Of a DNA stretch of 37,644 nt, positions 12,774-36,274 are shown one piece after another; within the stretch, counting starts at the first letter, position 1; every line of letters begins with the position of its first letter. The stretch is from Lysobacterales bacterium. Its GTDB lineage: Bacteria; Pseudomonadota; Gammaproteobacteria; Xanthomonadales; Wenzhouxiangellaceae. Location: contig JAKSCJ010000246.1 of assembly GCA_022360675.1 (NCBI GenBank), forward strand, positions 1 through 37,644, given 5' to 3'. The translations under genes and the position numbers were made by a program. The notes under the pieces were generated by a model. The model ran no database searches. It was not told where the DNA came from and was given only the letters and a program-made list of their open reading frames with translations.

Positions 12774-15700
12774 ACCCGTTTCAGCAAGCGCAGCACTGGC
12801 AACCGGCCGATCAAGAGGCACGCGAACAAGCATTGGATACCGGCCAATCTTTTATTGTGCAAGCGCCGGCGGGCTCGGGTAAAACCGGTTTATTGGTGCA
12901 ACGGTATCTCGCCTTGCTGGCCCAGGTGGATGAACCGGAAGAAATTCTCGCCATTACCTTCACCCGTAAAGCCACCGGAGAAATGCGCGAGCGCGTATTA
13001 CAGGCGCTGCAAAACAGTGTTGGTGACTGCCCGCCCGATGCAGAGCCATTTCAACGCCAAAGTTGGCAGTTGGGCCGCGCGGCCTTGGTGCGGGATGCCG
13101 AACGCGAGTGGTCATTATTGGCGCACCCCAGCCGTTTGCGTATTCTCACTATCGATGCGCTCAATGCCAGCTTAACGCGACAATTGCCGATTCTTTCAGG
13201 TTTTGGTTCTTCGCCGCGCATTACTGATCAATCCCAAGAGCTCTACCGCCAGGCCGCCCGGCGTTGTTTACGAGGTGATGGCCTGGACGAAGAACATTAC
13301 GCAGCGGTGCGCACGCTCATCAGTCACCTCGATGGCGACTACGGACGTAGCGAAGAACTCTTGGCGCAAATGTTATCCCAGCGTCAGCAGTGGCAACTGT
13401 TCCTGCATCTGGATACCAGCGATCGCGAAACCTTAGAGGGCGCGCTAGAACGCGAAGTGGCCGAGCGCTTGCAGCTGTTGGACCGACTATTAAAACCGGC
13501 CAAACAAGTGCTGTGGCATTGTCTGCAATTTGCCGCCGAACATGTGCCCGAAGATAAAGAACCCGATATTGCCCGCTGGGGTTTGCTCGATAGCTGGCCC
13601 GAGGCCGATGCCGACGATTTGCCCCACTGGCATGGCCTTATTCAATTGCTCACCACCACCAGCGGCAGTTGGCGTAAACGCTGGAATAAAAACCAAGGCT
13701 TGCCCACCAGTAAAGAAGGCAAGGAAATCAAAGAAGAACTGGCCCACGTGGTGGCTGATCTGCGCGGGCATCCTACTTTGCTGCAGCACATGGCCTTTGT
13801 GCGTTGTTTGCCGCCTGCGCAATATCGCCACGAGCAATGGCAGCTGCTGGCGGCCTTATTACAGGTGCTGAAATTGGGTTTGGCCCATTTGCAATTGGTG
13901 TTTCAAGAACAGGGCCAGGTGGATCACCCCGAAGTGGCTTTGCGTGCCCTGCAAGCATTGGGCGACGACGACCAACCCACCGACTTGGCATTGAAGCTAG
14001 ATTACCGTATTCGTCATTTATTGGTAGACGAATTCCAAGACACCTCGCGTTCACAGGTCACTTTGCTGCAACGTCTCACCGAAGGCTGGGAACCCGACGA
14101 TGGCCGTAGCCTATTTCTGGTGGGCGACCCGATGCAATCTATTTATCGCTTTCGCCAGGCCGAAGTGGGTTTATTCATGCAGGCCCAGCGCGATGGCTTG
14201 GGGCCGGTGAATTTAGCCGGTATTCAGCTCAATACGAATTTCCGTTCCCAAGCGGCCATTGTGGCTTGGGTGAACGATAGTTTTTCACGCTTATTCCCCT
14301 CGGCCGATGAAGCCGATGCCGAGCAAATCAGCTATAGCGCCAGCGCGGTGGCCCGTGACGATCCAGCAAGTGGCGCGGCAGTGGCTTTGCATCCCTTATT
14401 GGGCGAGCGGGGCGATACCCTGCAACAGGAAGCGGAAAAAGTGGCCCAACTCGCTTTGGCCACGGTGAATGATGGGCAGCATCCCCAAGCCGATGTGGCG
14501 GTGTTGGTTAGGCGACGCAACGACTTACTGGCCATTATTCCCGCCTTACGCCGCGCCGGTGTGGCCTTTGAAGCGGTGGAAATTGAATCTTTGGCTGGCC
14601 AACCGGTAGTGCAAGATCTCTACGCCTTGACCCGAGCCTTAATGCACGCCGGTGATGTTTCGGCCTGGGCGGCCGTGTTACGTGCGCCTTGGTGTGGCTT
14701 GGAGTTAGCTGCCCTCGATACGTGGTTGGGGCCACGTCCGCTACAACCGCTGCACGCCTTGAGTCAACTCTGTGAACGCTTGCCATTGACGCAACAACAG
14801 GGTTTGCCACGGGTATTGCCCATTTTGTTGAAGGCCCATCAACAGCGCCGCCGCTTAGCCTTACGCACTTTGGTGGAATCGACCTGGCGTCGACTAGGGG
14901 GCGCGGCTTGCCTGCGCGATGAACGGGAACGCGCCGATGCCGACGCCTTTTTCCAGCTACTGGAAAGCCTCGATGTAGCCGGTGATTGCGACGATCCGGT
15001 GGCTTTGGTGGAACGTCTCCAAGCCCTCTACGCGCGTCCCGACGCCTCGCCCGAGGCGGGACGGGTGAAGCTGATGACCATTCACAAAGCCAAAGGCTTG
15101 GAGTTCGATACCGTCATTCTGCCCGGCTTGGGCCAAAAAGGCCCTAGCGGTTCCCAAGGCTTATTACTTTGGCAAGAACGTACACGCCCCGGTCAGGGCA
15201 TGGATTTACTTATTGGTCCTTTACAGGCCAAGGGCGATGAGTCCGATCCCATTCAGCAATATATCCGCGCCTTAGATGCTGAACAACAGCGCCAAGAGCA
15301 ATTGCGTTTGTTATATGTGGCCACCACTCGAGCCCGGCGCTGTTTGCATCTACTGGGGGCGGTGAAACCACCCGACGACGATAACGACACCTTAAAGCCG
15401 CCGCCTGCGGGCAGTTTATTGGCGGAGTTGTGGCCCTTAGTGAGTGCCGATTTTGAACGGGCCTGGCATAAACAACAGGCGATTGGTGTAGAAAACCTGG
15501 CGCTGAACCAGAGCCCGGGGCAGGATCAATTAGCCTTGTTTGCTCAGCACGAAATGGCGGCACGACCGTATCGCCGTTTAACCGCCCAATGGCAGCTACC
15601 GCCAGCGCCAGACAGTGTGCATTGGCCCAAACGGCCGAGCCCGGCCAGCTTAGAAGACACCACACCTTTTGCCTGGGCGGGTATGCGCGCGCGCCATATC

Positions 15701-16216
15701 GGCACCGTGGTGCATGCGTGGTTAGAACGGATGGCCAATGAAGGTGTAGAACAGTGGAACGCCGAGCGCGTGCAGCAAGATCACCGAATGATCAGCCATC
15801 GTTTACGTTTACTGGGCGTGCCGCAGCAGCATTTAAGCCAAGCCACATTGCGAGTCTCGAAAGCCTTGCAAATGGTGTTACAAGATGAGCGTGGACGCTG
15901 GGTTTTGCAGCGCCACAGCGAGTCGAGTTGCGAGCTGGCCTTTAATGCCTGGCTCGACGGGCGCTTACAAACCTTGATTATCGACCGCACCTTTGTTGAC
16001 GAAAACAATGTGCGCTGGATAGTCGACTACAAGACTTCGGCTTATGAAGGTGAGCGCTTGGCGCAGTTTATCAGCCACGAAAAAGCACGCTATCAAAAGC
16101 AATTGAATAACTACGCGCGCGTCATGCAAAAACTGGAAGGACGCAGTGTGCGCACAGCCTTGTATTTACCACTAATGCCATTGTTTATTGAGGTAGAGCA
16201 TCTAAAGGCGGTGTAA
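12770..16216 (+). CDS. UvrD/REP-type helicase with C-terminal RecB-like nuclease (AddA-like)
   Basis: The 1148-residue product starts at ATG 12770. This ATG overlaps the upstream stop (ATGA) and lies six bases after GGGAGA; the in-frame ATG at 12764 abuts that site and is less likely. Superfamily 1 helicase motifs appear in order: Walker A APAGSGKT (32-39), TFTRKA, LLVDEFQDTSRSQ (motif II), GDPMQSIYRFRQAE (motif III), VKLMTIHKAKGLEFD (motif V) and LLYVATTRAR (motif VI). The C-terminal nuclease domain carries WIVDYKTS with D1086 and K1088, plus an LNNYARVM helix. With the upstream AddB-like protein it forms a two-subunit, two-nuclease end-resection enzyme of AddAB type. No clear T-rich terminator follows. 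Confidence 0.9.
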   Translation: MNPFQQAQHWQPADQEAREQALDTGQSFIVQAPAGSGKTGLLVQRYLALLAQVDEPEEILAITFTRKATGEMRERVLQALQNSVGDCPPDAEPFQRQSWQLGRAALVRDAEREWSLLAHPSRLRILTIDALNASLTRQLPILSGFGSSPRITDQSQELYRQAARRCLRGDGLDEEHYAAVRTLISHLDGDYGRSEELLAQMLSQRQQWQLFLHLDTSDRETLEGALEREVAERLQLLDRLLKPAKQVLWHCLQFAAEHVPEDKEPDIARWGLLDSWPEADADDLPHWHGLIQLLTTTSGSWRKRWNKNQGLPTSKEGKEIKEELAHVVADLRGHPTLLQHMAFVRCLPPAQYRHEQWQLLAALLQVLKLGLAHLQLVFQEQGQVDHPEVALRALQALGDDDQPTDLALKLDYRIRHLLVDEFQDTSRSQVTLLQRLTEGWEPDDGRSLFLVGDPMQSIYRFRQAEVGLFMQAQRDGLGPVNLAGIQLNTNFRSQAAIVAWVNDSFSRLFPSADEADAEQISYSASAVARDDPASGAAVALHPLLGERGDTLQQEAEKVAQLALATVNDGQHPQADVAVLVRRRNDLLAIIPALRRAGVAFEAVEIESLAGQPVVQDLYALTRALMHAGDVSAWAAVLRAPWCGLELAALDTWLGPRPLQPLHALSQLCERLPLTQQQGLPRVLPILLKAHQQRRRLALRTLVESTWRRLGGAACLRDERERADADAFFQLLESLDVAGDCDDPVALVERLQALYARPDASPEAGRVKLMTIHKAKGLEFDTVILPGLGQKGPSGSQGLLLWQERTRPGQGMDLLIGPLQAKGDESDPIQQYIRALDAEQQRQEQLRLLYVATTRARRCLHLLGAVKPPDDDNDTLKPPPAGSLLAELWPLVSADFERAWHKQQAIGVENLALNQSPGQDQLALFAQHEMAARPYRRLTAQWQLPPAPDSVHWPKRPSPASLEDTTPFAWAGMRARHIGTVVHAWLERMANEGVEQWNAERVQQDHRMISHRLRLLGVPQQHLSQATLRVSKALQMVLQDERGRWVLQRHSESSCELAFNAWLDGRLQTLIIDRTFVDENNVRWIVDYKTSAYEGERLAQFISHEKARYQKQLNNYARVMQKLEGRSVRTALYLPLMPLFIEVEHLKAV

Positions 16217-30333: not shown

Positions 30334-30948
30334 TTAGCGCTGAGACTGTAACTGGGCAATGCGCGCGGCGAGGCGCTCGGTGTCGTCGCGAATTTCATCC
30401 ACCGCTTCGAGAAAGTCGTCCAATTCCACTTGCGTAACCAGCAAACCGGATTCTTCTCTCAGATAATCGCCCGTCATGGCGGCGGTATCGGTGCGTGCTT
30501 GGATTAACCATTGGCGCAAGCCTTTCACGGCGGTGGCCAGACGATGGCCAATCACATCACCAAAACGTTGGGCGATCGCTTCTTCCCAGTCGGGATTGAG
30601 TTGTTCGAAAAACTGTTGATAAGCGCGGGCCAATTCGGCATCGCCTTGAATCTGTACGGCCCCCGGCCGTCCTGAGCTGCCCATACCCATGCCCGCCAAC
30701 GCGGTGGGTGTGCCGCGTATCCAGGTATCGGCGTCTTGCTCGCTATGTAAACGCACATCGAATTGCTCGTCGTTGACGCTGAAATAGAGATTAATACTCA
30801 AGCCTTCCAAACCAATACCCAATACCCGGTTTTGTAAAGCAGGCAGTGCGGCTTTGGCCTGGGGGTCAAAATGCAGCGATCGATTCAGCGCCAATTGAAT
30901 GGCACCGGCAAACATTCTGGGAAAAGGGGTCAGATACTGACGGCTCAT
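30334..30948 (-). CDS. ubiJ: UbiJ, SCP2-domain ubiquinone biosynthesis accessory protein
   Basis: The 204-residue protein has an N-terminal SCP2 lipid-binding domain (about 10-125; LEGLSINLYFSVND and a late GDAELARAYQQF) and a C-terminal coiled coil (about 160-204). UbiJ binds ubiquinone intermediates and works with UbiK in the soluble Ubi complex. Its ATG overlaps the ubiE stop by four bases (ATGA), so translation is coupled. Confidence 0.94.
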   Translation of the reverse strand: MSRQYLTPFPRMFAGAIQLALNRSLHFDPQAKAALPALQNRVLGIGLEGLSINLYFSVNDEQFDVRLHSEQDADTWIRGTPTALAGMGMGSSGRPGAVQIQGDAELARAYQQFFEQLNPDWEEAIAQRFGDVIGHRLATAVKGLRQWLIQARTDTAAMTGDYLREESGLLVTQVELDDFLEAVDEIRDDTERLAARIAQLQSQR

Positions 30949-31739
30949 ACCCGATACCCTTTGTGGATGGCGCAGATGCCGTGGCTTAAGTTACGCCAGC
31001 CAACTTGCACCATACCCGCTTTTTCCATCATGGCCGCCAATTCGGCCTGGGGCGGATGTTGGCGAATACTTTCGGCGAGGTATTGATAGCTATCGGCGTC
31101 GTCGGCCACTTTGGCCCCTAAACGGGGCAAAATTTGGAACGAATAAGTGTCGTACAGGCGTGATACCAAGCCGGGCTGTACCTTGGAGAACTCCAAAATC
31201 AAAGCTTTGCCACCGGGCTTTAAGATGCGGTGCATCTCATTGAGTGCGCGCTGTTTATCGGTGACGTTGCGTAAACCAAAGGCCATGGTGATCGCATCCA
31301 CCGATTGATCGGGCAACGGCAGGGATTCGGCGTTGATCAACACATAATCGACTCCGCGAACCGTGCCTTCGTCTTCTAAACGCCGGCGCCCCACATTCAA
31401 CATGGCAGCGTTAATATCCGACAAAATCACCCGGCCCAAAGGCCCCACTTTGCGAAGTAACAGACGGGCGATGTCGCCGGTACCACCGGCTAAATCCAGC
31501 ACCGTAGCGCCAGGGCGAATACCGCTAGTGCCGATGAAGTCGCGCTTCCAAATGCGGTGAATCCCCATCGACATCAAGTCATTCATGATGTCGTAACGGC
31601 CCGCCACCGAATCGAACACCCCTTTTACACGGCGTGTTTTCTCTTCGGGGCTGACTTGTTGGTAGCCAAAATGGGTGGTATCGCCGTCCTGGGTTTGCGC
31701 AGGCTCGGCCGTAGGGCTTGGGTGTTCAAGTTCAGACAT
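30945..31739 (-). CDS. ubiE: UbiE, ubiquinone/menaquinone biosynthesis C-methyltransferase
   Basis: The start is ATG 31739, with GAGAA a few bases upstream; an upstream TTG at 31766 is less likely. The 264-residue protein carries the UbiE/COQ5 signatures: FDSVAGRYDIMNDLMSMG (42-59), the SAM motif DLAGGTGD (82-89) and MAFGLRNVTDKQRALNEMHR with RILKPGGKALILEFS. It C-methylates the quinone ring in ubiquinone (and, where present, menaquinone) synthesis. The first 25 residues are a hydrophilic extension slightly longer than in E. coli. It heads the ubiE-ubiJ-ubiB unit. Confidence 0.96.
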   Translation of the reverse strand: MSELEHPSPTAEPAQTQDGDTTHFGYQQVSPEEKTRRVKGVFDSVAGRYDIMNDLMSMGIHRIWKRDFIGTSGIRPGATVLDLAGGTGDIARLLLRKVGPLGRVILSDINAAMLNVGRRRLEDEGTVRGVDYVLINAESLPLPDQSVDAITMAFGLRNVTDKQRALNEMHRILKPGGKALILEFSKVQPGLVSRLYDTYSFQILPRLGAKVADDADSYQYLAESIRQHPPQAELAAMMEKAGMVQVGWRNLSHGICAIHKGYRV

Positions 31740-33370
31740 GGTTCTCGCGCGTCTTAGCTGGCCCAAAGGCCAATGATCAATCGACCTATTATCTTACGCT
31801 TAGGGTGCGCAAGCTAGTGTATGAGGCCATTCACAGGGTAAATTTCAAACGCTTAGACCGTACGACTCCGTATGTCGGGCACGATTAAGTGCTGCTCCGC
31901 GCCTTATCGACGGCACTAGATAGTATTGCGCGCGAGCAAACTCTGGCGATCAACCAGCAGGCTGTCGGTCAGAAGCGCTGCGGGTGCGGTTGAAAAAATA
32001 CAGCAGTAGGCAACATTCATGTGTTAACTAGTGCAATCGTCAAGCCATAGCTTGGCATCTGGCGTTGGTGCCTTTTATGGGATTATTCAGGGGGCTGCGG
32101 CTTGCGATGTTGAGCGCTTGTTTACGGTTGATGATCTTCTGGTGATTGTCTTATTCATGGTTTTCTATCATCTTTTTTGTTAGTTGCTGCGGTCAGAGTT
32201 TGTTTAACGAATCGTGATGGTTTTTTTGATAGATGAATGATTAAAAGGTGGATGATTTAAAGATAAAGGAACAGGTAAACCAATAGAGTGCGAGTCGACT
32301 CAATGGCGAAAGCCATCAAGACGAATGTCTAATTTTGTGACGGTAATCTCAAAGCTAAAGTTGATGGCGCTTTGGGATATGCAAAATGGTTATGAGTTCA
32401 TTGGTGTATAGCTACGAGATATCAATGAAGTTTTCATGGTGTGTTTTAGCGCTTCTATATGCTGAACTCGGCAAAAAAACTGCAAAATTAAAGGTCCATT
32501 GCCAGTAATGCTAAACAGAGAATGCAATACAGTAACCAAGACCATTAATAAATTTAGGTGTTAGCTATATTTAGCGCGAATAAAAATAAAAAATTGCTGA
32601 TAAAGCTGGCGCTTATCGATAAATGCCATTATCATGCAAGCACATTGTTCATGGATATGAACGGTAAATATTTTGCGGTTTTGCTTTTAGCTGGTGGCGA
32701 TTTTCCTTAGGCATGAATATGCCCATACGCGCAAATTGCATCACTTATCAGCAGCGCTGGCATCGCTAAGGAAGGCGTTATCAATTTTGTATATTTAGTG
32801 CCATCGCACGGCTCGCTCAATTGATCTTCTGTCTCCCCTTTTTACACGGCGCAACATTTTTAGCAAAAATAGTACTTGCGTGATGACGCATAAATGTTTA
32901 TCGTTGATTCCAACATTTAGTTGAGAATGTGAAAAATTAAATGGTTGCATAAGTAACCAATTAATAAGCAACATTCCACAAATGGTGTTTAAGGATTTTG
33001 CTCGAAAGAGCGCTCAGCAGGAACTGATTGAGACTGAAGTAAGTCGCGTTTTTCTACACATCGTTTTGTTCATAGCAATCTTGAAATCGATAGATGTATA
33101 GAAAAGAGCAAGGGAAATATCAGCGCTACTTAGGTGGGAGATTACCCACTGTTAAGACAGATTGGATAGCAAGTCGATATTTCCAAAATTCCATGCAAAC
33201 TCAATACGTGTCGCTCGGTATGGTTCGAGTTAACACAAGCATGGAAGTTATTTTAGTAGCGATTCATCTTGTTGGTGTTTGATTAAAACGAAGCAATCTT
33301 CTTAAAGCAAGGCACTTAATTGTTGCCATTACTATTGAATTTTACAGCGCCGATGTCTTAGGAAAGATGA
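31740..33370. other. A+T-rich non-coding region upstream of ubiE
   Basis: No credible gene is present; the only listed-size frame (33094-33282, 62 codons, +) has no family resemblance. Small perfect hairpins occur, such as ATGGC-GAAA-GCCAT (32303-32316) and GTTCAT-GGAT-ATGAAC (32647-32662), and GAGTCGACTC forms a palindrome near 32292. Their number is not clearly above chance. The ubiE promoter and leader must lie near 31740-31860, where TGGCC-CAAA-GGCCA (31759-31772) forms a leader hairpin. Confidence 0.5.
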
Positions 33371-33470
33371 TCGACGCGTGATACCAGTCCCTCAAACGGG
33401 CCAGGTGTATGACCTCCCTGGTAGCGCACCACCACGGCCCATCAGCGCCATTGCCCTGTGGCGCATGTTA

Positions 33471-33510
33471 GCGGCTGTGGGCAGCCCTCCCGCAGCCGCC
33501 TTTTCTTTTT
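33471..33510 (+). terminator. Strong orphan terminator
   Basis: GCGGCTGTGGG (33471-33481) pairs with CCCGCAGCCGC (33489-33499) across a 7-base loop, with one T-G wobble, followed by C-TTTT-C-TTTTTT. No gene ends just upstream on this strand, so it implies a non-coding transcript or marks an element boundary. Confidence 0.6.
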
Positions 33511-33516
33511 TAAAGC

Positions 33517-33585
33517 GCCAGTCTTGCATGGAACAGTGAGGATGCAAATATTCCCACCGAGCCCATCCATGCATTAGCGACTGGC
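33517..33585. repeat. Interrupted inverted repeat
   Basis: GCCAGTC (33517-33523) plus GCATGG (33526-33531) face CCATGC (33567-33572) plus GACTGGC (33579-33585). The right arm has extra bases, so the folded strand has a bulge. No flanking duplication is apparent. Confidence 0.5.
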
Positions 33586-33662
33586 TTTCCCTCGGGTGGC
33601 TCGCGATTGGTTATAAATCATCGTGTAGATGATCCCACCCATTGCACATTGCCCCGAAACTG

Positions 33663-33799
33663 TTTGTCTAAATAGTGTTATGTAGCGAGCGTCTTATAAC
33701 TAGAGTGCTCGATAAAGCATCTGTTGGATGAAACCGTTGAGGTATCAAAAGCTATACATCGATTTTTTTTAACAGCACTGCGATTACTATTTAGACAAA
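33663..33799. repeat. 14-bp perfect inverted repeat enclosing 109 bp
   Basis: TTTGTCTAAATAGT at 33663-33676 is the exact reverse complement of ACTATTTAGACAAA at 33786-33799. The enclosed 109 bp hold no gene. No obvious target-site duplication flanks the arms. It could be a small transposon-derived element or a paired binding site. Confidence 0.7.
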
Positions 33800-34344
33800 T
33801 ATGAGATGACAAAACTCTAACACAAACCAATCAATTGTTCGATGAAATTGACTGGGCGTAACATTGTCTAGACATACGTACCGTTTTTTATTGCACGCTT
33901 TGTCGAATATCAGGCATCTATTGTTTTTATTTGATGCTTAGAGCATGACTGTTGATGAATAGCCGTTGTTTAGAATGCTTATACTGGCGAGTATCGTTTA
34001 TCACTATTTAAATTATCGATAGTAACTAGTCGATACTTTATGTTTTTTATCTAAAGAAAAGCGCGGCTTGTTCAAACCTACATCACACTTATTGCTTGCT
34101 ATGCTATCAAGCGGTACGAGCATTTGATTATGATCAATGCCCATTAAAATCGCAGCGTTTTAATGAATAGCTTAAGCTGTTGGCCATTGAAGTAATGCGC
34201 TAACTTTGAGTTTAGTGTGATTTCGCAAAAACGTATTGACGCTTGTCAGGGTATCGGAGCGTATTGGTCTGATATCACGGCGTAAGATATCGGGTGGAAA
34301 AGAACAACAGAAAAGATAACTGTGGTGTGAGTTGGCGGCATGCT

Positions 34345-34369
34345 GTTGAGGCAGTAAGTCTGCCTCAAC
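34345..34369 (-). terminator. Hairpin after hslU, without T-tract
   Basis: GTTGAGGCAG and CTGCCTCAAC form a perfect 10-bp stem with a 5-base loop about 30 bases after the hslU stop. On the minus strand it is followed by AGCATGCC, not Ts. It may protect the 3' end or be a weak terminator. Confidence 0.45.
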
Positions 34370-34398
34370 GAATGGATCGATTGGTTTGTAGTAATGCT

Positions 34399-35730
34399 TT
34401 ACAGAATGTAACGACTTAAGTCTTCATTCTTAGCCACGCCATCGAGATGCGCGTCTACATAATTGGCGTCGACATCTAAGTTTTGGCCGTCACGATCGGG
34501 TGCTTCAAAGGAGATTTCATCCAGTAGGCGCTCCATGACCGTATGCAGGCGACGTGCACCAATGTTCTCGGTGGTTTCGTTCACATGCCAGGCAATTTCT
34601 GCCAAGCGCCGAACCGCATCGCTGCTGAAGCTAAGACTTAAGCCTTCGGTACCTAACAACGCGGTGTATTGTTCGGTGAGCGATGCTTTGGGCTCGGTTA
34701 AGATACGCTCGAAGTCCGACACGGTGAGTGAGTGCAATTCAACGCGTAAAGGCAAACGGCCCTGTAACTCGGGAATGAGGTCCGAAGGCTTGGAGAGGTG
34801 AAACGCGCCCGAGGCCATAAATAAAATATGATCGGTCTTAACCACGCCGTGTTTGGTGGAGACCGAGCTGCCTTCCACTAAGGGCAATAAGTCTCGCTGC
34901 ACTCCTTCACGCGATACATCGGCACCGGAGTAATCACTACGACGCGCGACTTTGTCGATTTCGTCGATGAACACGATGCCGTTTTGTTCAACGTTTTGTA
35001 AGGCGCTCTGCTTAATTTCTTCTTCGTTTAGCATATTGGCTGCTTCTTCTTCAGTTAACAGCTTTAATGCATCTTTGATTTTTAAGCGGCGCTTTTGCTT
35101 GCGTGAGCCGGCTACGTTTTGGAACATCTGCTGCAGCTGGCCGGTCATTTCTTCCATGCCGGGCGGTGCCATAATTTCCACACCCACATTGGCACTGGCA
35201 TCGATCTCGATTTCGCGCTCGTCTAAATCGCCATTGAGTAACTTGCGGCGCATTTTTTGACGCGATTCGTTATCGGTATCGTCGGCTTGATTATGGCTTT
35301 CCCAACTGTTGGGAGCGCTGGGTAGCAGGTAATCTAACACGCGGTCGTAGGCGGCATCTTCTGCCCGTGGACGCAGCTTTTCGATGGCTTGTTCGCGGGT
35401 CATTTTGACTGAGATATCCACCAAATCGCGAATGATGGATTCCACATCTTTGCCGACGTAGCCCACCTCGGTGAATTTGGTTGCTTCAACCTTTAAAAAA
35501 GGCGCGTTGGCCAAGGCCGCCAGGCGACGAGCGATCTCGGTTTTGCCCACACCCGTAGGGCCGATCATTAAAATATTTTTCGGGGTGATTTCGTTACGCA
35601 GTTCAGCATCGACCTGTTGGCGCCGCCAGCGATTACGCAGTGCAATGGCTACGGTACGTTTGGCATCGGCCTGACCAATAATGTGTTTATCCAATTCTTG
35701 GACAATTTCCCGTGGTGTCATTTGTGACAT
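34399..35730 (-). CDS. hslU: HslU, ATPase subunit of the HslVU protease
   Basis: The start is ATG 35730, one base after the hslV stop, giving 443 residues, the same length as E. coli HslU. A longer frame to 35796 only adds hslV-overlapping sequence. The protein shows Walker A GPTGVGKT (57-64), the [17 protein letters not shown] segment, an intermediate domain (about 105-240), Walker B IVFIDEID and the C-terminal SRYIL tail that docks into HslV. HslU is a AAA+ unfoldase that feeds substrates to HslV in the cytosol. Translation is probably coupled to hslV. Confidence 0.97.
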
Positions 35731-35731
35731 A

Positions 35732-36274
35732 TCAGCGGCTTTCCAGAGTTTCGATGGTGAAATGGCTATTGGTATAAATACAAATATCGGCGGCAATGCC
35801 CAGGCTTTCGCGCACGGTGGCCTCGGCGTCGAGCTCGCTGTGGCGCAACAAGCTTAATGCTGCCGCCCGTGCGAATTCGCCACCGGAACCAATGGCAATT
35901 AAGCCGTGTTCGGGTTCGAGTACGTCGCCGTTACCAGTGATAATTAAAGAGGTTTGATGATCAGCTACTGCCAATAAGGCTTCTAGACGGCGTAGTGCGC
36001 GGTCGGTACGCCAGTCTTTGGCAAGCTCGACGGCGGCGCGAACTAAATGGCCGCTGTGTTTTTCCAGCTGGCCTTCAAAGCGCTCGAATAAAGTAAACGC
36101 ATCGGCGGTGGCGCCGGCGAAGCCCGCTAAGACTTGGTCGCGGTATAAGCGACGCACTTTGCGTGCGTTGGCTTTCATAACCGTGTTACCTAAAGTGACT
36201 TGGCCATCGCCGCCCAGTGCCACTTGATTGCCCCGGCGAACCGAGACAATGGTGGTGCCGTGATATTGTTCCAT
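35732..36274 (-). CDS. hslV: HslV, proteolytic subunit of the HslVU protease
   Basis: The start is ATG 36274, with AGG about 7 bases upstream; a longer frame to 36358 lacks homology in its extension. The 180-residue precursor reads [15 protein letters not shown] short propeptide is therefore expected to be removed to expose the catalytic threonine (T7). [10 protein letters not shown] and [11 protein letters not shown] are family signatures. HslV forms a double hexamer capped by HslU. A sigma-32-like promoter lies about 40 bases upstream. Confidence 0.97.

Follow-up and report, generated by a model that had tools for sequence, protein, structure and literature searches.

A candidate plus-strand small-RNA gene with predicted CCCU loops in the gap between ubiE and hslU

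The window analysed here is the whole stretch of 37,644 nucleotides, which belongs to a 3.9-Mb draft genome (518 contigs, 97.5% complete, G+C content 52%). It contains a long gene-free gap between ubiE and hslU, and a G+C-rich island lies inside this gap. The features of the region are as follows.

30945-31766, minus strand: ubiE, flanking the gap, with its start at 31766
31767-34398: gene-free gap between ubiE and hslU, 2632 bp
33341-33368, plus strand: weak promoter-like site TTTACA-16-AAAGAT (8 of 12 positions; not above chance; missed by the consensus scan), a possible start of the transcript
33371-33511, plus strand: candidate small-RNA gene, with a probable 3' end at about 33505-33511 and a probable 5' end at about 33340-33395
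33398-33440, plus strand: predicted hairpin 1, apical loop UCCCU (33415-33419), -18.3 kcal/mol alone
33410-33472, plus strand: 20-codon ORF, MTSLVAHHHGPSAPLPCGAC then stop, which enters the terminator stem; considered as a leader peptide or small protein
33445-33464, plus strand: predicted hairpin 2, apical loop UGCCCU (33452-33457), -11.5 kcal/mol alone
33471-33511, plus strand: intrinsic terminator, stem 33471-33499, apical loop CAGCCCU, tail CTTTTCTTTTTT, -21.7 kcal/mol
33516-33585, no strand assigned: imperfect hairpin that follows the terminator, present in a single copy, -25.3 kcal/mol when folded alone
34399-35796, minus strand: hslU, flanking the gap, with its stop at 34399

Comparisons within the genome were made on a sample of 297,730 bp, composed of the window and 20 further stretches. 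The ubiE-hslU gap is the longest in this sample between ORFs of at least 100 aa. Its G+C content without the island is 0.400, and as the other long gaps are mostly at 41-44%, an A+T-rich spacer is normal in this genome. In a search with HslU and UbiE, hslU followed by ubiE on the same strand, at most 5 kb apart, was found in 6 of 37 relatives (G002, G003, G007, G037, G041 and G043). This shared order and orientation argues against a false contig join and renders the join believable. Among these relatives the spacer is shortest in G043 (about 70 bp) and longest in G002 (about 4 kb), so its length varies freely, and unrelated protein ORFs occupy it in G003 and in G002/G007, which suggests that it is a place of DNA gain and loss. 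The genes present in the spacers of G002, G003 and G007 (L092, L094 and L093 respectively) differ from genus to genus; judged by eye, they encode repeated-domain surface-type proteins in G002 and G007 and a TPR-like protein in G003.

The earlier note described a 230-bp G+C-rich patch in A+T-rich DNA. The island is real, but its core covers only about 140 bp (33371-33511): the G+C content is 0.596 over 33371-33600, 0.624 over 33371-33511 and 0.551 over 33512-33600. When 140-nt segments were slid along the gene-free gaps of at least 300 bp in the 297,730 bp sampled, 33367-33506 had the highest G+C content (0.636) of all 1903 intergenic segments (mean 0.43, sd 0.063). The C content of the island stretch is 36%.

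The terminator is strong: its stem of 11 bp includes 9 G-C pairs and is closed by a loop of 7. It is also one-sided, the T-run being present on the plus side only. Terminator-like sites were counted in the same own-genome sample (99 in total, 32 within ORFs and 67 intergenic), and this one ranks seventh by hairpin energy among the 67 intergenic sites. The textbook terminator lacking an upstream gene that had been noted before was confirmed: the gene immediately upstream, ubiE, is divergent, and the nearest co-oriented gene end lies about 7.4 kb upstream. Among the stronger sites, only L144 4413-4439 has no co-oriented gene end within 500 bp, and it is a symmetric terminator (T-runs on both sides) read in reverse, located 65 bp behind a gene of the opposite strand. 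The orphan state is not unique, as some weaker orphan terminators also occur in the sample. One mark of a small-RNA gene, an intrinsic terminator that does not belong to an upstream gene, is present here. Orphan terminators are an accepted predictor of small RNAs (PMC2573895), and candidates supported by the same class of evidence, an intergenic terminator with no flanking co-oriented gene, are described for Sinorhizobium meliloti in that report; those candidates were in addition scored by promoters and conservation and were detected experimentally, whereas the searches found no conservation for the present one.

RNA folding places three inverted repeats in the core (33398-33440, 33445-33464 and 33471-33499), to which the imperfect one at 33516-33585 is added, so that the several inverted repeats previously reported do exist. 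For the segment 33371-33515 the folding energy is -56.9 kcal/mol (z -2.99), and 1 of 200 dinucleotide shuffles was as good; with a second shuffle set, 7 of 1000 were as good for 33371-33511. Once the terminator is removed the fold is weak to moderate: z is -1.07 for 33371-33464 (130 of 1000 shuffles as good) and -2.34 for 33395-33470 (27 of 1000). The terminator thus supplies much of the fold stability of the island, and a structure more stable than chance, which is another mark of a small-RNA gene, is found with the terminator and is weak to moderate in its absence. Stable folding is also predicted for 33510-33640 (z -2.86).

Seven 5' ends in the range 33331-33392 were tried. All three hairpins were predicted with each of them, and the CCCU motifs of the three loops were unpaired with a probability of 0.98-1.00 in every case, except for the last base of the third motif (0.83). 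A fourth CCCU, 5'-terminal (33389), is partly paired with some 5' ends. Four mainly unpaired CCCU motifs were obtained in 1 of 1000 shuffles, a figure that concerns a motif chosen after it had been seen; any 4-mer with four unpaired copies was obtained in 93 of 1000. The CCCU pattern is only modestly unusual, in a stretch that is C-rich as a whole.

No good promoter above chance was found around the island, where 1 promoter-like site was observed and 6.4 were expected by chance, and no sigma-54 promoter was found near it. A coding relic was considered and rejected, as no match was obtained with Pfam for the 12 gap ORFs scanned or with PHROGs for 10 gap ORFs, and among 6266 segments translated from the retrieved loci tblastn found nothing convincing, its one match being trivial (26 residues). 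A 60-aa ORF of the minus strand had no match in plasmids.

The island is single-copy in its own genome by BLASTN, the four other matches being 18-24 nt long (E 0.02 to 0.6), and covariance models of each half, built from one sequence given twice, recovered only the island itself from this genome. In the family, BLASTN (E up to 1e-4) matched 1 of 43 genomes, which is the source genome, and none of the 42 others; the covariance-model search gave one further match, with E 0.8. In the order, 398 genomes drawn from a larger group were searched and the best two scored candidates per listed genome were considered; among the matches listed, the source genome was again the only one, with none in the 397 others. 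With a looser threshold (E up to 0.01), matches of 23-29 nt appeared in 5 of 60 other genomes, and three of these are the purA matches discussed below. The 40 flanking loci of relatives gave four weak model matches (E 0.74-3.8), two of which cover little beyond the terminator, and 80 named ubiE loci gave none. Phages and plasmids contained no match for the island or the gap, and viral contigs no exact match of two short patterns. No Rfam family was found in the window at gathering thresholds, and with E up to 5 only two implausible eukaryotic matches, far below threshold, were obtained; a tRNA/tmRNA search was negative. The literature search for a small RNA between hslU and ubiE returned only unrelated work on Cupriavidus.

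Conservation or covariation in relatives, which supports a small-RNA gene but is not obligatory for it, was consequently not observed, and with no homologue found there is no covariation to lean on. According to the earlier note, the lack of a transcript and of both conservation and additional copies would count against its proposals. On the sequence side this lack was found, but it is weak evidence, because the searches yielded no other genome of its genus. A young or fast-changing small RNA is moreover expected to have no detectable homologues, so their absence decides little.

Five other explanations were weighed against a small RNA. The island might be a non-functional leftover, that is, a fragment of average G+C content, once coding or foreign, that persists in a decaying intergenic region with functionless hairpins and terminator. 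The gap is the longest sampled and has nothing recognizable inside, the G+C content of the island is only slightly above the 52% of the genome, gap content and length vary among the relatives looked at, and the family and order searches gave no sign of conservation. However, decay does not leave behind stable hairpins that lead into a strong and intact terminator with a one-sided T-run, and neither sequence nor protein searches matched the island to any source; we regard a leftover as rather unlikely. That the stretch serves as a small-protein mRNA or a leader peptide, the His-rich 20-codon ORF being translated and the hairpin at its stop acting as a terminator or attenuator, is improbable. 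Its ATG is preceded by AGG a few bases upstream, and its stop codon and the outermost base pairs of the terminator stem overlap, an arrangement like that of attenuators; yet the start codon and first codons are buried in the stable hairpin 1 of the predicted fold, DNA searches found no homologue, and an attenuator was rejected because there is no plus-strand gene downstream that it could act on, hslU being encoded on the minus strand.

The repetitive extragenic element suggested earlier, or a MITE-like element, would fit the intergenic setting and the G+C-rich hairpins. The candidate is also flanked by 12-bp near-direct repeats (33340-33351 and 33508-33519), but by estimate chance alone would give about 0.5 pairs of this kind in 701 bp. 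A repetitive extragenic palindrome is present in many copies per genome, whereas BLASTN against the whole of this 97.5% complete genome and the covariance models of both halves found one, and the 42 other family genomes have none; we abandoned the repeat reading as very improbable. Equally hard to sustain is a CsrA/RsmA-sponge RNA or another element of the minus strand. The minus strand of 33371-33640 carries seven GGA motifs, and the minus strand also folds (z -2.44), but Rfam gave no Csr/Rsm match even with E up to 5, and the island's terminator acts only in the plus orientation; no terminator was found in the island on the minus strand, which carries the GGA motifs. Finally, purA of three other genera resembles a 25-nt piece of the island (92% match), all three matches (in L006, L007 and L008) lying within the conserved VVRYQGGHNAGH stretch of the gene, which raised the idea of an antisense regulator of purA. 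The organism's own purA has diverged at this place (GTAGTGCGCTTTCAAGGCGGACACA versus GTGGTGCGCTACCAGGGAGGTCATA), so pairing would be worse in the organism itself, and when one chance match falls in a conserved gene, it reappears from genome to genome. Since its own purA is less similar than those of other genera, the three matches are ascribed to chance and the antisense idea, which had next to no likelihood, was ruled out.

The combination of an orphan, strong, one-sided terminator with a structured G+C-rich stretch devoid of coding content is a classical hallmark of stand-alone small-RNA genes and is best fitted by a small RNA, and 33371-33511 is probably a stand-alone plus-strand small-RNA gene. 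Of the two readings put forward in the earlier note, a plus-strand small RNA ending near 33510 is plausible and is the better fit. Transcription would start from a putative promoter just upstream (about 33340-33395) and, as the sequence supports, end at the intrinsic terminator 33471-33511. The predicted RNA of about 110-170 nt would begin with a short 5' stretch that is largely open, followed by three stable hairpins. The third of them is the terminator, and each of the three apical loops would expose an unpaired CCCU; the U-rich tail could also bind Hfq.

This layout resembles that of sX13 of Xanthomonas, a transcribed, structured and active RNA whose C-rich loops repress mRNAs carrying G-rich motifs at their translation starts (PMC3771888). 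By analogy, we propose that the candidate represses mRNAs through its CCCU loops: these would pair in trans with G-rich, Shine-Dalgarno-like stretches (AGGG or GGGA) near mRNA start codons, and this pairing would block translation as sX13 appears to do. Possible targets exist, since of 211 sampled start regions 15 contain AGGG and 14 contain GGGA, but the low number with AGGG counts against the proposal. Such a mechanism is a tentative suggestion; for the proposal taken as a whole, a lineage-specific plus-strand small RNA whose CCCU loops repress mRNAs, we see the case as evenly balanced.

Both sX13 and the candidate are single intergenic small-RNA genes. In both, the 5' stretch is open, three stable stem-loops have apical loops rich in C, and pairing with G-rich motifs near translation starts is predicted; for the candidate the structure, too, is a prediction. 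They differ in location, sX13 being encoded at the polA locus and the candidate lying between ubiE and hslU, and in their loops, which contain 4, 4 and 5 C in sX13 and 3 C (CCCU) in the candidate (PMC3771888). Rfam with E up to 5 gave no sX13-type match, which is telling only if Rfam includes an sX13 model. Membership of the sX13 family is not claimed, because of the different locus and the lack of an Rfam match. In Mycobacterium, C-rich apical loops of 6C/B11 pair with G tracts in the 5' regions of mRNAs, a regulation like that proposed here; 6C/B11 has two C-rich loops and is actinobacterial, whereas the candidate has three and no Rfam match (PMC10470900). Staphylococcus aureus RNAs with UCCC loops, such as RNAIII, are also named in the sX13 report (PMC3771888). 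The UCCC of their hairpin loops is aimed at ribosome-binding sites, similarly to the mode proposed for the candidate, which has no Rfam match. The latter belong to an unrelated organism, and their size and layout are other than those of the candidate.

The origin of the small RNA in this lineage might be independent of those of sX13, 6C and alpha-r7. It would then be a convergent C-rich-loop regulator at a new locus, hslU-ubiE, whose three CCCU loops could reach the Shine-Dalgarno regions of many mRNAs, a view that we hold as a doubtful possibility. If transcribed, the candidate adds one lineage-specific small RNA and possibly another independent origin of the C-rich-loop design; such an origin, if true, would bear on the ease with which C-rich loops evolve as an anti-Shine-Dalgarno tool. 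The candidate is plausibly of an ordinary kind, a good candidate and no surprise.

Close to the start of ubiE, at 31857-31996, the gap includes another patch of raised G+C content (58%), weaker than the island and with no coding or RNA match. The gap also contains a perfect 14-nt inverted repeat, TTTGTCTAAATAGT (33663-33676) and ACTATTTAGACAAA (33786-33799), whose arms are 109 nt apart and which might serve as a pair of operators or form a cruciform; with two exact copies in the genome and one at 1 mismatch, it is not a multi-copy element. Another long gap of the same genome (L140, contig C423) contains short ORFs at about 14960-15120 (minus strand) and 15388-15750 (plus strand), with leader-like N-termini and, for one of them, a Gly/Pro/Cys-rich C-terminus. 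They give the impression of small RiPP precursor peptides that fall below ORF length cut-offs.
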